Positions 10,960 to 33,053 of a stretch of DNA of 33,053 nt are shown one piece after another. Position numbers and translations under genes: made by a program. The stretch lies in assembly GCA_947306225.1 (NCBI GenBank), contig CAMZFW010000006.1, positions 1 through 33,053 on the forward strand, given 5' to 3'. Position 1 is the first letter of the stretch. The number at the start of each line of letters is the position of its first letter. This stretch comes from an uncultured Bacteroidales bacterium. Its GTDB lineage: Bacteria > Bacteroidota > Bacteroidia > Bacteroidales > P3. A model generated the notes under the pieces. The model was not told the origin of the DNA and ran no database searches. It was given only the letters and a program-made list of their open reading frames with translations.

Positions 10960-11031
10960 TCGGACGGGTCGGACTAGTCGGATGTGTCTGATTGGTCTGA
11001 TAAGCCTGATTGGTCTGATTAATCCGACATG
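10960..11031 (+). repeat. 9-bp tandem array, locus 2 (8 units, 72 bp)
   Basis: TCGGACGGG TCGGACTAG TCGGATGTG TCTGATTGG TCTGATAAG CCTGATTGG TCTGATTAA TCCGACATG; begins 8 nt after the stop at 10950-10952. Confidence 0.85.
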
Positions 11032-12440: not shown

Positions 12441-12546
12441 CCCAATGCTTATCCGATGGTGTAGTATCGGAAAACCACCTGCTATTCGGTAGAAAGCGGT
12501 AGAATGAAGTAGAATGCAGTAGGAATCGGTAAGATGCCGTAACAGA
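12441..12546 (+). repeat. Dispersed intergenic element, copy 3 (divergent): CCGAT-N8-ATCGG hairpin 12453-12470 plus 6 decamer units 12487-12546
   Basis: TTATCCGAT block shared with copies 1 and 2; CGGTAGAAAG CGGTAGAATG AAGTAGAATG CAGTAGGAAT CGGTAAGATG CCGTAACAGA. Confidence 0.8.
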
Positions 12547-12561
12547 TAGAATAAAAATGTG

Positions 12562-12569
12562 TACTTTTG
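12562..12569 (+). promoter_or_regulatory. Orphan -7 box (TACTTTTG) after decamer array copy 3
   Basis: GTGTACTTTTGCACACGG; no + strand CDS follows before the terminator at 12673. Confidence 0.4.
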
Positions 12570-26178: not shown

Positions 26179-26291
26179 GCATACTGATTATGCCCCGTAT
26201 TTCATCCCAGTCGCTCTGCCCAATAGTCGTCTTTTGGTCGGCTTCTGACGCTCCTGTACCCCATTTTTCGCCCGTTTTTCTCTTGTACTTA

Positions 26292-26446
26292 ACCGTTCGT
26301 TTGCCGTTCGTTATCCGATCGTTTGCCGTTCTAGCGACGGCAAACGACCCCCCAATCGGTAGAATGCGGTAAGATGCGGTAGAATGCGGTAAGATGCGGT
26401 AAGTTTCGGTAAAATGCGGTAAGATGCGGTAAGATGCGGTAAAGAA
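26292..26446 (+). repeat. Dispersed intergenic element, copy 2: hairpin 26320-26346 plus 9 decamer units 26357-26446
   Basis: GTTCGTTATCCGATCGTTTGCCGTTCTAGCGACGGCAAACGACC block identical to copy 1; CGGTAGAATG CGGTAAGATG CGGTAGAATG CGGTAAGATG CGGTAAGTTT CGGTAAAATG CGGTAAGATG CGGTAAGATG CGGTAAAGAA. Confidence 0.95.
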
Positions 26447-26564
26447 CTGCGTAGTTTTTTTTGGAATGGTGTGACTGATTGCACGTAAACACACACAATA
26501 CCCCCTCTCTACGGCCGGATGAGGGCAGCAAAGGGGAAGGATGGTTGAAAGGGAGAGAGTGTGG

Positions 26565-28614: not shown

Positions 28615-29907
28615 ATGAAGAAGGTCGTTCTTATCCTTATCCTCGTTGTCTGCGGCAATGCTTTGCTGGCGCAGGCTCCCAAAACGATGGATACAATCAT
28701 AGGTCGCGAGCCTACCTATCTCTACCAACGCTGGTTTGACTCAGTGGATTTTTTACATGCCCAAACTTGTAGAAAGAAGATTGTTGGTTATGGTGGTGTA
28801 GAACTGGCAAAATATAATTATACAGATTCTGCACTCAAAGTAGTCGGTATTGCAGCATACGTCTGGGCCAGGTACGACGGTCCCGGGTTGCCGTGGGAAC
28901 CGCGATGTGCAGATACCACATTCGACAATTGGTATGAGAATTTTATTCTATACAAACCAACTGATACGGGAATGGTGATGTTGGCAACACAAAGATACAG
29001 TGTCCTTGACACAACCCGATGGATGAGATTGTACTATAACGTTGACTATTATATGCCTAATAGTGACTCTGTGTATGTAGGGTACTTTCCAATATACGAG
29101 GCCTATTTTGATGAACCTGTCACGGTAACAGATTCATTTTATGTTGCCACAACTGGCTACCACGAGGTAGTCGATTCGCAATCATGGACATATCCTGGGC
29201 CTCGTCCGGGAACAGGATGTTATAGTAACACAAATACGAACAAGCCATGTTATTGGCAGCATTATATGTGGAAAGATCAGACTACTGGCTTTCAATGGAG
29301 ATATGCTTTTTCTGATCAAGTGTTAATTGTTTTCCCCATTATCGACACGACGCAGCCGAGGTGCTGGAGGCCTGTGGGGCTAAACGTACAGTCGCAGGAC
29401 TCTAGTGGGGTGTATCTGGCTTGGGAAGGAGGCGAGAACAATCAGACTTGGGAGGTGGCATACGGACGTGCCGATGAGGAACCCAACGGATATGCGACAC
29501 GGACAACCTCCTCGCCCGCGTACACATTGACAGGCCTCACTGCGGGAGTGGAGTATGCAGTGCGGTTGCGGGCCATCTGTTTCGACAACACTATGTATAG
29601 CAGTTGGACGGACACGATATGTTTCAACCGCGAGGGCGAGCCGCTCGATATCGTTGTCCCTGACAATAACATCGGCAACATACAGCTGATGCCCAACCCG
29701 GCAAGCGGGAACGTGATGGTACTGTCGCCTCTTGAAATAGAGCTGATAGAGGTGTACGACGAGAAGGGCACCCGTGTGCTAGAACAGAAGGAACGGAACC
29801 ACACGACATCGGTGGGCTTCGATGTGTCGAAATGGGCGAAGGGAACCTATGTGGTGTTGGTGCAAACCCCTACAGGAACCACTGCCAAGCGGCTTGTTGT
29901 GAACTAA
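28615..29907 (+). CDS. Secreted protein with FN3 domain and T9SS type A C-terminal sorting domain (paralog of the preceding gene)
   Basis: Signal peptide MKKVVLILILVVCGNALLAQ (ATG 28615); FN3 CWRPVGLNVQSQDSSGVYLAWEGG...; C-terminus IQLMPNPASGNVMVLSPLEIELIEVYDEKGTRVLEQ...FDVSKWAKGTYVVLVQTPTGTTAKRLVVN. Confidence 0.87.
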   Translation: MKKVVLILILVVCGNALLAQAPKTMDTIIGREPTYLYQRWFDSVDFLHAQTCRKKIVGYGGVELAKYNYTDSALKVVGIAAYVWARYDGPGLPWEPRCADTTFDNWYENFILYKPTDTGMVMLATQRYSVLDTTRWMRLYYNVDYYMPNSDSVYVGYFPIYEAYFDEPVTVTDSFYVATTGYHEVVDSQSWTYPGPRPGTGCYSNTNTNKPCYWQHYMWKDQTTGFQWRYAFSDQVLIVFPIIDTTQPRCWRPVGLNVQSQDSSGVYLAWEGGENNQTWEVAYGRADEEPNGYATRTTSSPAYTLTGLTAGVEYAVRLRAICFDNTMYSSWTDTICFNREGEPLDIVVPDNNIGNIQLMPNPASGNVMVLSPLEIELIEVYDEKGTRVLEQKERNHTTSVGFDVSKWAKGTYVVLVQTPTGTTAKRLVVN

Positions 29908-29914
29908 GAGTGTG

Positions 29915-30034
29915 TTGATTGCTTGATTGTTTGATTGCTTGATTGTTTGAGTATTTTTCACTCAAGCATTTACACATTCAAGCATTAACCCATTCAAGTA
30001 TTAACACATTCAAGCATTAACACATTCAAGCATT
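29915..30034. repeat. Compound 8-bp/16-bp tandem repeat around a TTGAGT...ACTCAA hairpin
   Basis: TTGATTGC/T x4 (29915-29946), hairpin 29947-29965, then 4 x 16-bp AACACATTCAAGCATT (29971-30034). Confidence 0.9.
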
Positions 30035-30066
30035 ATTTGATATATCAATTATTGATTTATTTTTTG

Positions 30067-30074
30067 TATATTTG
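30067..30074 (+). promoter_or_regulatory. -7 box (TATATTTG) upstream of the DUF4230 pair
   Basis: TTTTTGTATATTTGCAACATG. Confidence 0.5.
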
Positions 30075-30171
30075 CAACATGAAAGAGTGGGTGCTTGTTT
30101 TATGACGATTGTTGTAACATGTTGAAAATAAGTATATGATGTAAATTGATAAATGAATAAGGAGTATTGAA

Positions 30172-30777
30172 ATGAGGTTAAAAAATGTTATATGGCCGAT
30201 GATACTGCTTGCGGCGGTGCTTTTGTCCTCGTGCAATAAGGAGGAGAAAGAGAGCGCGTGGCAGCAAAGAATCAGGCAGGTGTCCGAGCTGGGCACGGTG
30301 CAGTATACGGTGCAGAAAGTGGTGAGCAATAGCGACGAGACGTGGCAGATATTCGGAAACAGGAAGATACTGTTTTCGTTCAAGGCTGTTATCAAAGCCG
30401 GTATCGATATGGATAAGTTCGATACCGAGTCGGTACGTATCAGCGTCGACAAGAAACACAAGACCAAGAGCATCTCGTTGGTGCTGCCACAGCCGGAGGT
30501 GTTGAGCTATAACATTAGTCCAGACGATGTGAAAGTGGTTTACCATCAGGTGTCGTTTCTGCGAACAGAGTATAGTGTCGAGGAGCTCAACGCCATAGAG
30601 GCAAAAGGCGAGCTGGAGTTGAAGGAGGACAAGGAGTTGACGGACATGATATTGAAGGATGCACGGCAGAATGCTGCCATATTTATGGAGATGCTGTTGC
30701 GCGAAAACGGATTTACGAATGTGACGATTACTTTTAAGCAGGGAAGTCAGCGAAGAGAAGTAAGAACTAAGAACTAA
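30172..30777 (+). CDS. DUF4230-like lipoprotein
   Basis: Lipobox LLSSC|NK; SELGTVQYTVQKVV..., IKAGIDMDKFDTESVRIS....SISLVLPQPEVLSYNISPDDVKV, C-terminal RQNAAIFMEMLLRENGFTNVTITF. Confidence 0.8.
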   Translation: MRLKNVIWPMILLAAVLLSSCNKEEKESAWQQRIRQVSELGTVQYTVQKVVSNSDETWQIFGNRKILFSFKAVIKAGIDMDKFDTESVRISVDKKHKTKSISLVLPQPEVLSYNISPDDVKVVYHQVSFLRTEYSVEELNAIEAKGELELKEDKELTDMILKDARQNAAIFMEMLLRENGFTNVTITFKQGSQRREVRTKN

Positions 30778-30780
30778 AAT

Positions 30781-30826
30781 TGAATGTGTGAATGTGTAAA
30801 TCTTTGACTAACGAATTAACACATTA
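30781..30826. repeat. Octamer-type hairpin (module P, copy 1)
   Basis: TGAATGTGTGAATGTGTAAATC-TTT-GACTAACGAATTAACACATTA. Confidence 0.75.
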
Positions 30827-30833
30827 GGTGGTT

Positions 30834-30930
30834 TCTAAAAATAGGATTAAACGAAATTCCCTACGGGAAATAAATATTGTTAATCAATGCGTTTCTATTG
30901 AACGAAAAGCCCTGACAGGCTATTTTTAGA
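30834..30930. repeat. Palindromic MITE/REP-like element 1 with perfect 11-bp terminal inverted repeats
   Basis: TCTAAAAATAG (30834-30844) ... CTATTTTTAGA (30920-30930); internal TTCCC-TAC-GGGAA and CCT-GAC-AGG hairpins. Confidence 0.75.
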
Positions 30931-30960
30931 GGTTGCCATTAACGAATTAACGAATTCTTT

Positions 30961-30990
30961 CAATTTTCAATTTTCAACTTTCAATTTTCT
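30961..30990 (+). repeat. TCAATTTT-type array
   Basis: CAATTTTCAATTTTCAACTTTCAATTTTCT; 26 bp identical to 11804-11829 in folC. Confidence 0.85.
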
Positions 30991-30995
30991 GAAGT

Positions 30996-31817
30996 ATGAT
31001 GGAAGAGATTCAGAATATAGACCAGCCAGAGGGTATGCCAGAGGTAGAGGTAAAGGAGTTAATGCCCGAGACAGATGCCCCAGAGGAACAGCAGGAACAG
31101 GAGCAGACGGATGCTCCCGAGGATGCTTCTGAGGAGAAAAAACGTTTGAGTTTCGGCGATGTATGGAAGGTTTTGTGGGAGTTTCTGATAAAGAAGAAAC
31201 GCACGGTGTTGTTTATCGCGCTAGCATTGGTGGCTGTGCTGGTGGTAGTGTTTGTCATTTATAGGAACCAGGTGGGGAAGAACCGCTACGAGACATTGGT
31301 GCAGACCATCACCGAGATGAAGCGTATATCGGAGTTTTGCACGGCCAGCTATATTGGAGAGGTGATGATTCAGGACGAGGAGAAGCAGTTTTTGAACCGT
31401 AAGAATATTGTCTTGATAGTGCGGGGAAAGGTGCGAATGGGCTACGACCTCTCTAAGATGGAGACCGAGGTGGTGAACGACTCTACCATCAACCTGACAC
31501 TGCCTCAGGCGCAGGTGCTCGACATTATCACCAACCCGTCGGACGTTCGCATTTTTAACGAGAAGGGCAATTGGTCGCACGAGCGGGTCACTATAACCAA
31601 GAATGCGGCACGAGCTAAGTTGCTGGAACTGGTGATGGAGGATAATATGCTGGCCACGGCCGAGGATAACGGGAAACGACAGCTGGAGGCTATCTTTTCA
31701 TCGTTTGGTTTCAAGCATGTGAACATAGCCGTTGTGGTGGATTCGACGGGATGCCTGAACACAGAGATGGTGGGCGATTCGGTGTCTGAAAACGCCACGA
31801 CACTCTTCTCTCATTGA
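30996..31817 (+). CDS. DUF4230-like membrane-anchored protein with acidic cytoplasmic tail
   Basis: Acidic N-terminus, single TM TVLFIALALVAVLVVVFVIY, then ELxTASYIGEV-like DUF4230 region similar to the upstream paralog (LTLPQAQVLDIITNPSDVRIFNEKG). Confidence 0.82.
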   Translation: MMEEIQNIDQPEGMPEVEVKELMPETDAPEEQQEQEQTDAPEDASEEKKRLSFGDVWKVLWEFLIKKKRTVLFIALALVAVLVVVFVIYRNQVGKNRYETLVQTITEMKRISEFCTASYIGEVMIQDEEKQFLNRKNIVLIVRGKVRMGYDLSKMETEVVNDSTINLTLPQAQVLDIITNPSDVRIFNEKGNWSHERVTITKNAARAKLLELVMEDNMLATAEDNGKRQLEAIFSSFGFKHVNIAVVVDSTGCLNTEMVGDSVSENATTLFSH

Positions 31818-31826
31818 GAACTTTTT

Positions 31827-31905
31827 TGAATGTGTTAATTCGTTAATGTGTTAATTCGTTAGTCAATGACTCACACATTAACGCATTCACACGCTAACAC
31901 ATTCA
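31827..31905. repeat. Octamer-type hairpin (module P, copy 2), 38-bp arms
   Basis: 31827-31864 versus reverse complement of 31868-31905: 29/38 identical by hand count; loop AAT. Confidence 0.85.
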
Positions 31906-31910
31906 GGAGA

Positions 31911-32042
31911 GTTCTATAAATCACCTCGAAGAGGTGAGATTATTAATAACACGGTACAAGCCGAAGGCGCAGTGCCGTGACATTCAAACATAAGGAAACT
32001 GCGTCCCGAAGGGACGCGACATATATACAGTATTTACAGAAC
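31911..32042. repeat. Palindromic MITE/REP-like element 2: terminal inverted repeats plus three GAA-loop hairpins
   Basis: GTTCTATAAAT ... ATTTACAGAAC ends; TCACCTC-GAA-GAGGTGA (31921-31937), CACGGTAC..GCC-GAA-GGC..GTGCCGTG (31950-31979), GCGTCCC-GAA-GGGACGC (32001-32017). Confidence 0.85.
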
Positions 32043-32097
32043 CCACCTTAGCGAATTAACACATTCAAATAATTCTCAATTATCAATTTATTTTGAG

Positions 32098-32105
32098 TAT
32101 CTTTG
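32098..32105 (+). promoter_or_regulatory. -7 box (TATCTTTG) of sufB
   Basis: TTGAGTATCTTTGCAGTTTG. Confidence 0.55.
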
Positions 32106-32134
32106 CAGTTTGATTTAATTGAACAGACTTTATT

Positions 32135-33053
32135 ATGGCCGAAGATAACAATAGTATAATTCAAGAGGTTACAAACGAAGAGTATAAATGGGGTTTTGTG
32201 ACCGATATTGACACGGACACCATTGGCAAGGGGCTGAACGAGGATGTGGTGCGCCTGATCTCGAAGAAAAAGAACGAACCGGAATGGCTGTTGGAGTTCC
32301 GACTGAAGGCCTTCCGCAAATGGCAGACGATGAAGGAGCCCGACTGGGCACACCTGCAGTACGACAAGGTGGACTATCAGGACATTATCTACTATGCCGC
32401 CCCGAAGCAGCGCGAGCTGAAGAAGAGCCTCGACGAGGTGGATCCCGAGCTGTTGGCGACGTTCGACAAGCTGGGTATCCCCCTGCGTGAGCAGAAGCAG
32501 CTGGCAGGCGTGGCGTATGATGCCATTATGGACTCTGTGTCGGTGAAGACCACTTCGCAGAAGATGCTGGAGGAGAAAGGTATTCTGTTCTGCCCCATCA
32601 GTGAGGCGGTGCAGAAGTACCCCGATTTGGTGCGACAGTATCTGGGCTCAGTGGTGCCAATTGGCGACAACTTCTTTGCAGCGTTGAACTCGGCAGTGTT
32701 TAGCGACGGGTCGTTCTGCTATATCCCCAAGGGGGTGCGCTGCCCAATAGAGTTGTCGAGCTATTTCCGCATCAATGCCCGTGGCACAGGCCAGTTTGAG
32801 CGCACGCTGATTGTGGCGGATGAGGAGGCGTATGTAAGCTATATGGAAGGCTGCACCGCTCCGCAGCGCGATGAGAACCAGCTGCACGCCGCCATAGTTG
32901 AGATTGTGGCGCTGAAGGATGCCGAGGTGAAGTACAGCACGGTGCAGAACTGGTACCCCGGCGATAAGGAGGGCAAGGGCGGTATCTATAACTTTGTGAC
33001 CAAGCGCGGCATCTGCAAGGGGTCGCACAGCAAGATTTCGTGGACGCAGGTGG
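32135..33053 (+). CDS. sufB: Fe-S cluster assembly protein SufB, truncated by the window end
   Basis: [118 protein letters not shown]. Confidence 0.97.

Follow-up and report, generated by a model that had tools for sequence, protein, structure and literature searches.

Background

Insertion sequences of the IS5 family and the MITEs that belong with them are characterized by a DDE transposase, inverted ends and 4-bp target duplications. Among the intergenic mosaics described in other bacteria, the Correia elements are MITEs of 100-155 bp that lie within the neisserial intergenic mosaic elements (NIMEs) (PMC3898611). Insertion sequences are also found to insert into REP sequences, often site-specifically (Tobes and Pareja 2006, PMC1525189), and direct repeats of the intergenic heptamer TAACTGA have been described in Beggiatoaceae, cyanobacteria and some Bacteroidetes (MacGregor, PMC4679880).

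Here we analyze an intergenic mosaic in a stretch of 33,053 nucleotides (the window; contig CAMZFW010000006.1) from an uncultured Bacteroidales bacterium. Two successive gaps look alike, namely that between DUF4230-1 and DUF4230-2 (gap 1, 30778-30995) and that between DUF4230-2 and sufB (gap 2, 31818-32134). A domain search bore out the gene names, with two hits to PF14014 followed by the SufBD N-terminal and core domains. An earlier note on this DNA proposed that both gaps share a mosaic of four modules in the same order, and this observation was confirmed in part: gap 1 and gap 2 each contain an octamer hairpin, together with an element that has internal palindromes and inverted ends of the TTCTA(a/t)AAAT type. 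We consider it likely that each gap represents an extragenic hairpin built of octamers that was hit by a different IS5-type MITE, and that the resemblance of the two gaps reflects two insertions into one type of target rather than inheritance of one composite. The assembly of this organism comprises 2.41 Mb and is 85% complete; 1.61 Mb of it was searched with each module, using module families seeded from the window's own sequences.

Structure and history of gap 1

The following features were assigned to gap 1.

30778-30826, plus strand: octamer hairpin of gap 1, with the 5' arm, the core TTTGACTAACG and the initial part of the 3' arm (nhmmer family)
30823-30826, no strand: left ATTA copy of a 4-bp target duplication (flank comparison)
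30827-30937, plus strand: 111-bp MITE B1 with ends GGTGGTTTCTAAAAATA and GGCAACCTCTAAAAATA and two internal hairpins, CCCTACGGG and GCCCTGACAGGC (approximately 14-20 full or partial copies; empty site at four loci)
30938-30957, plus strand: right ATTA copy and the rest of the octamer hairpin 3' arm, ATTAACGAATTAACGAATTC, which rejoins 30805-30826 after removal of one ATTA
30958-30989, plus strand: T-rich heptamer array, TTTCAAT/TTTCAAC (sequence; heptamer TRF families; orientation rule)
30990-30999, plus strand: TGAAGTATGA, with the ATGA stop/start overlap motif of relatives still legible (4-nt overlap in L161, L162 and L163)

The octamer core of gap 1 has a 100% identical copy on contig C69. 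When B1 and one copy of ATTA are deleted, the 37-bp sequence GACTAACGAATTAACACATTAACGAATTAACGAATTC results, which has exact matches at four other loci in the genome, while the junction retaining both ATTA copies had no match in the searched part. The stretch written as (TT)AGCGAATTAAC/TTAACGAATTAAC, which had been taken for a separate third module, belongs to the octamer hairpin as its 3' end, severed by the insertion. The elements had been measured at 97 and 132 bp; their lengths do differ, but we place their boundaries at 111 bp (30827-30937) and 142 bp (31906-32047). Since DUF4230-1 and DUF4230-2 overlap by 4 nt in L161, L162 and L163 and lie 1 nt apart in L164 and L165, comparison with these relatives shows the entire 218-bp mosaic of gap 1 to be a lineage-specific arrival, and the old ATGA junction can still be read at 30996-30999.

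Structure and history of gap 2

Gap 2 contains the features listed here.

31826-31905, minus strand: octamer hairpin of gap 2, reversed relative to that of gap 1 (core comparison; fold; hairpin at the same place in L162 and L161)
31906-32047, plus strand: 142-bp MITE B2 with ends GGAGAGTTCTATAAAT and GGTGGGTTCTGTAAAT (relatives in the same genome at 85-92%; missing in L162)
31922-31936, no strand: B2 internal hairpin 1, CACCTCGAAGAGGTG (sequence, fold)
31950-31979, no strand: B2 internal hairpin 2, CACGGTACAAGCCGAAGGCGCAGTGCCGTG (sequence, fold)
32001-32017, no strand: B2 internal hairpin 3, GCGTCCCGAAGGGACGC (core shared with a MITE family that has 8-bp duplications)
32048-32068, minus strand: distal end of the octamer hairpin of gap 2, cut off by B2, TTAGCGAATTAACACATTCAA (pairs with 31826-31846 when the element is left out; uninterrupted in L162)
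32098-32105, plus strand: sufB promoter -7 motif TATCTTTG, with no repeat array (conserved before sufB in relatives)

With the element removed, the fold of gap 2 is a single stem of approximately 45 bp at -38.8 kcal/mol, versus -13.6 for shuffled sequence (z = -9.3). The octamer cores of gaps 1 and 2 match at 89% in inverted orientation, so the order of modules reported as common to both gaps is superficially the same but runs through hairpins that point in opposite directions. The array of TCAATTTT named as a fourth module exists in gap 1 only; at the corresponding place in gap 2 stands the promoter motif, which is kept upstream of sufB in L162, L163, L164, L170 and L171 and has the form TACCTTTG in L165.

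B2 is flanked by TTCA and TTAG, with no clean target duplication, and its insertion is therefore concluded from L162, whose gap 2 is an empty site in which the octamer hairpin carries no element. An unrelated MITE of the family with 8-bp duplications and GGCTC ends interrupts this hairpin in L161. A diverged octamer hairpin is found in gap 2 of L164 and diverged octamer-like repeats in L165; L163 has no hairpin there and has nonetheless kept the sufB promoter, and L170 and L171 have an ordinary stem and T-run between DUF4230-2 and sufB. This comparison shows that the hairpin of gap 2 predates the insertion. Downstream of DUF4230-2, IS5 ends were seen in L168 and the three-hairpin core in L167.

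The gap after DUF4230-2 has the appearance of an insertion hot spot, with differing transposon-related insertions in L161, L167 and L168.

The 142-bp element was found in none of 118 other genomes of the order. A structured RNA of known family was considered and set aside, as no Rfam family matched at its gathering score within 29900-32300.

MITEs with IS5-type ends and their parent

Neither B1 nor B2 has an open reading frame inside, both have terminal inverted repeats, and the ends of the two align with each other. From end pairs and profile hits we compiled by hand a list of 13 to 15 IS5-type elements, within which the group with TTCTATAAAT ends showed exact 4-bp duplications in 9 of 13 cases, compared to 3.8% for cross-paired flanks (p ~1e-10). 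The earlier suggestion that mobile elements are involved was right, and empty sites do exist. Terminal inverted repeats of the GGnnnnTTCTannAAAT type were present in 26 of 59 genomes of the same genus, and the reversed control pattern gave zero in every genome listed.

Lone ends near contig ends in genomes of the genus run into the start of a gene, and by following such ends we found full copies of a 1.33-kb insertion sequence in L275, L278, L285, L286 and L288. Its transposase is a DDE enzyme of the IS5 family (NF033581, E ~1e-80, over the cut-off; also PF01609 and PF05598). Its termini read GGGGAGTTCTATAAAT on one side and GGTGGGTTCTAT..AT on the other (the ends are also given as GGGGAGTTCTATAAAT and GGTGGGTTCTATnnAT), and the L288 copy has a TAGA duplication. 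These ends clearly match those of B2 (31906-32047), and the match is looser for B1 (30827-30937), GGCAACCTCTAAAAAT. A search of the window's own 85% complete genome with the IS5-family transposase protein gave no match; that genome does contain a shortened copy of the insertion sequence at L080:9613-9725, a deletion derivative with bp 1-41 fused to bp 1253-1329 (93-95% identity), which directly illustrates the way such miniatures originate. Taken together, ends, duplications and transposase show B1 and B2 to be two different MITEs of IS5 type, and an autonomous IS5-family element with matching ends is present in the genus. We classify both as new MITEs whose ends are of the IS5 type; the hairpins inside them do not come from the known 1.33-kb parent.

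Two other candidates were discarded during this search. The open reading frames beside lone ends in the window's own genome, considered as transposases, looked like ordinary genes, and a putative composite transposon in L244 (two TTCTATAAAT ends 2.5 kb apart, enclosing an AraC-like and a porin-like gene named by eye) has flanks without a matching duplication and probably consists of two unrelated elements.

The internal hairpins, such as GCGTCCCGAAGGGACGC, resemble REP sequences, and it might be proposed that the elements are REP- or BIME-like palindromes spread by a RAYT, a Y1 transposase related to IS200/IS605, as the earlier note had envisaged. We regard this as extremely improbable. A search of the genome (85% complete) for Y1_Tnp (PF01797) was empty while positive controls matched, and the units are 111-203 bp long with terminal inverted repeats and 4-bp duplications of the IS5 type, not palindromes of 20-40 bp without duplication. 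To our knowledge, Y1 enzymes produce neither long terminal inverted repeats nor 4-bp target duplications, and the genus has an IS5-family parent whose ends match.

A second MITE family

The three-hairpin core of the 142-bp IS5-type element is also found in the MITEs with 8-bp duplications, so that one core occurs with two unrelated sets of ends. Perfect 8-bp duplications were present in 12 of 17 copies of this family in the window's own genome (anchored boundaries).

Copies of the family in this genome (L101, L107, L116, L124, L140, L160 and others) are approximately 172-185 bp long, with one of 243 bp, and have ends GGCTCTTATGCTATATTTGACTGATTTTT / ...TTAGAGCG and A+T-rich 8-bp duplications. 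At L103, L126, L138 and L152 an extra hairpin of the GTCGCGACCGAAGGGAGCAAC type sits in the loop of the core's second hairpin, as if hairpins had been swapped or nested.

The GGCTC ends and the A+T-rich 8-bp duplications resemble those of ISL3, and we treat that label as a lead only. ISL3 was tried as the parent and rejected, as a search of the window's own genome (85% complete) gave no PF01610 and no parent was found.

Octamer and heptamer repeats across the genome

The octamer module has 81 non-overlapping copies in the 1.61 Mb searched with nhmmer, and octamer-related sequence was found in 44 of 59 genomes of the genus. A third gap with an octamer hairpin directly precedes the two described above, and it carries no inserted element.

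29908-30040, plus strand: octamer hairpin in the gap before DUF4230-1, third consecutive such gap, TTGATTGC.../...CAAGCATT with loop GAGTATTTTTCACTC (sequence; core comparison)

Using longest-ORF gene calls made for this analysis, we counted how often modules share a gap, taking gaps of 120 bp or more. Members of the octamer family were found together with the 111-bp element in 3 gaps versus 1.3 expected, and octamers and heptamers in 10 versus 5.3 expected. Elements touched arrays of 7- or 8-bp units in 12 of 32 mapped cases, compared to 15.6% of intergenic positions, an excess of approximately 2.4-fold (p = 0.04 and 0.02 for two element classes). The modules are thus only weakly coupled and mostly independent across the genome, and we therefore take the two neighboring gaps to reflect separate insertions into a common kind of target. 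For the elements this is largely the independence that the earlier note had named as evidence against its own proposal, while an order rule for the heptamers survives. Where heptamer arrays adjoin octamer hairpins, the A-rich form stood to the left and the T-rich form to the right without exception (21 of 21), and inverted heptamer pairs no more than 200 bp apart followed the same rule in 54 cases versus 1, the two tests overlapping in the arrays that they count.

Copying of a single mobile or recombining composite into both gaps, with octamer, element, octamer and heptamer in series as in a BIME-like unit, would also give the same superficial order in adjacent gaps, and T-rich heptamers do follow some other octamer copies. 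We judge it very improbable. The elements of the two gaps belong to different families and the hairpins are mutually inverted. The earlier statement that this is not a simple recent duplication stands. Most elements lie away from arrays, and with the excess of element/array contacts being modest we see no fixed mosaic or four-module unit with a preferred order. The empty sites, the gap 2 hairpin without element in L162 among them, largely refute such a unit. Under the reading that we prefer, an extragenic hairpin of 8-base tandem repeats would have been present first, and a different IS5-type MITE would have inserted into the hairpin of each gap, severing its far end.

Other tandem repeats were observed elsewhere in the window. 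Arrays of a 10-bp unit (AAGATGCGGT type) occur three times (4048-4166, 12474-12562 and 26334-26472), two of them overlapping a repeated 182-bp block (3968-4149 and 26264-26445; 86% identical). A 56-bp inverted repeat with a 5-bp loop, made of ATCAACGAT/ATCGTTGAA units, lies at 2144-2260, and short intergenic arrays of a 9-bp unit (TCGGAGGGG type) lie at 5728-5790 and 10961-11005.

A possible role as terminators

The octamer cores were distributed unevenly among gap types, with 46 in co-directional gaps, 12 in convergent gaps and none in divergent gaps, the latter making up 81 of 401 long gaps. When octamer blocks were merged and restricted to those with genes on both sides, 1 of 59 lay in a divergent gap. 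The blocks lie a median of 13 bp downstream of the preceding stop codon, and the hairpins place a stem-loop after the 3' end of a gene, as intrinsic terminators do. Gap type, position after stop codons, the strict orientation of the heptamers and the ordinary stem and T-run that L170 and L171 have in gap 2 suggest that the octamer hairpins serve as strand-symmetric terminators, although the near-absence from divergent gaps could instead reflect selection against insertions that damage promoters. Folding was variable, with only 41% of copies at z < -2 and a median copy at z = -1.4. The stems are A+T-rich with no consistent T-run, and fewer than half of the copies are followed by T-rich heptamers, which where present stand on the correct side; base bias in the flanks of octamer blocks overall was not significant (p = 0.07-0.19).

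If the hairpins act in this way at gene 3' ends, they could become landing sites because putative terminator hairpins would tolerate insertions. It is tempting to extend this to the genus and to propose that strand-symmetric hairpins, assembled from short tandem repeats with octamer arms between A-rich and T-rich heptamers, are used as dispersed bidirectional terminators that spread between gene ends and are shared landing sites for several transposon families, a proposal that we put forward tentatively and with considerable doubt.

The arrays might alternatively be A+T-rich filler made by slippage and without function, where elements land simply as in any intergenic, A+T-rich sequence. The modest association between elements and arrays would fit this explanation, as would the lack of a hairpin in L163 and the abundance in this genome of arrays of several periods (7, 8, 10 and 11). 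Filler would not be expected to show the strict orientation of the heptamers or the near-absence from divergent gaps, and the recurrence of the same octamer sequence in most genomes of the genus also argues against it. We consider this explanation rather unlikely.

Comparison with known systems

Our search of the literature on Bacteroidales for mosaic repeats and for hairpins of octanucleotides, the coverage of which was incomplete, found no account of these families. The results place two MITE families in an uncultured genus of rumen-type Bacteroidales and add, for one of the two, its IS5-family parent. They illustrate how a look-alike arrangement in adjacent gaps can come about when separate insertions hit one kind of target more than once, and a natural experiment is available in the relatives, whose hairpin is either empty or occupied by one or another element. 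If the octamer and heptamer hairpins do terminate transcription, their design is an unusual one for a terminator.

The MITEs share inverted ends and 4-bp duplications with the IS5 family, whose NF033581 transposase is found in the parent, and differ in that the copies in the window have no transposase. As in the Correia elements and NIMEs, transposase-less MITEs with terminal inverted repeats lie in intergenic arrays of short repeats; Correia elements, however, have a TA duplication, 26-bp ends and dRS3/RS arrays, compared to the 4-bp duplications, IS5-type ends of approximately 16 bp, octamers and heptamers found here (PMC3898611). Like the insertion sequences found in REP sequences, these are transposons inside dispersed extragenic palindromes, but targeting of REP sequences is often site-specific, whereas here we see only the approximately 2.4-fold excess, with several element families sharing the target (PMC1525189). 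The TAACTGA repeats are likewise short tandem repeat families scattered between genes; they are direct and mostly just before start codons, while those described here form inverted concentric arms and lie mostly after genes (PMC4679880). We regard the arrangement as a further case, from a rumen-type gut bacterium, of a type of intergenic mosaic already known in bacteria.
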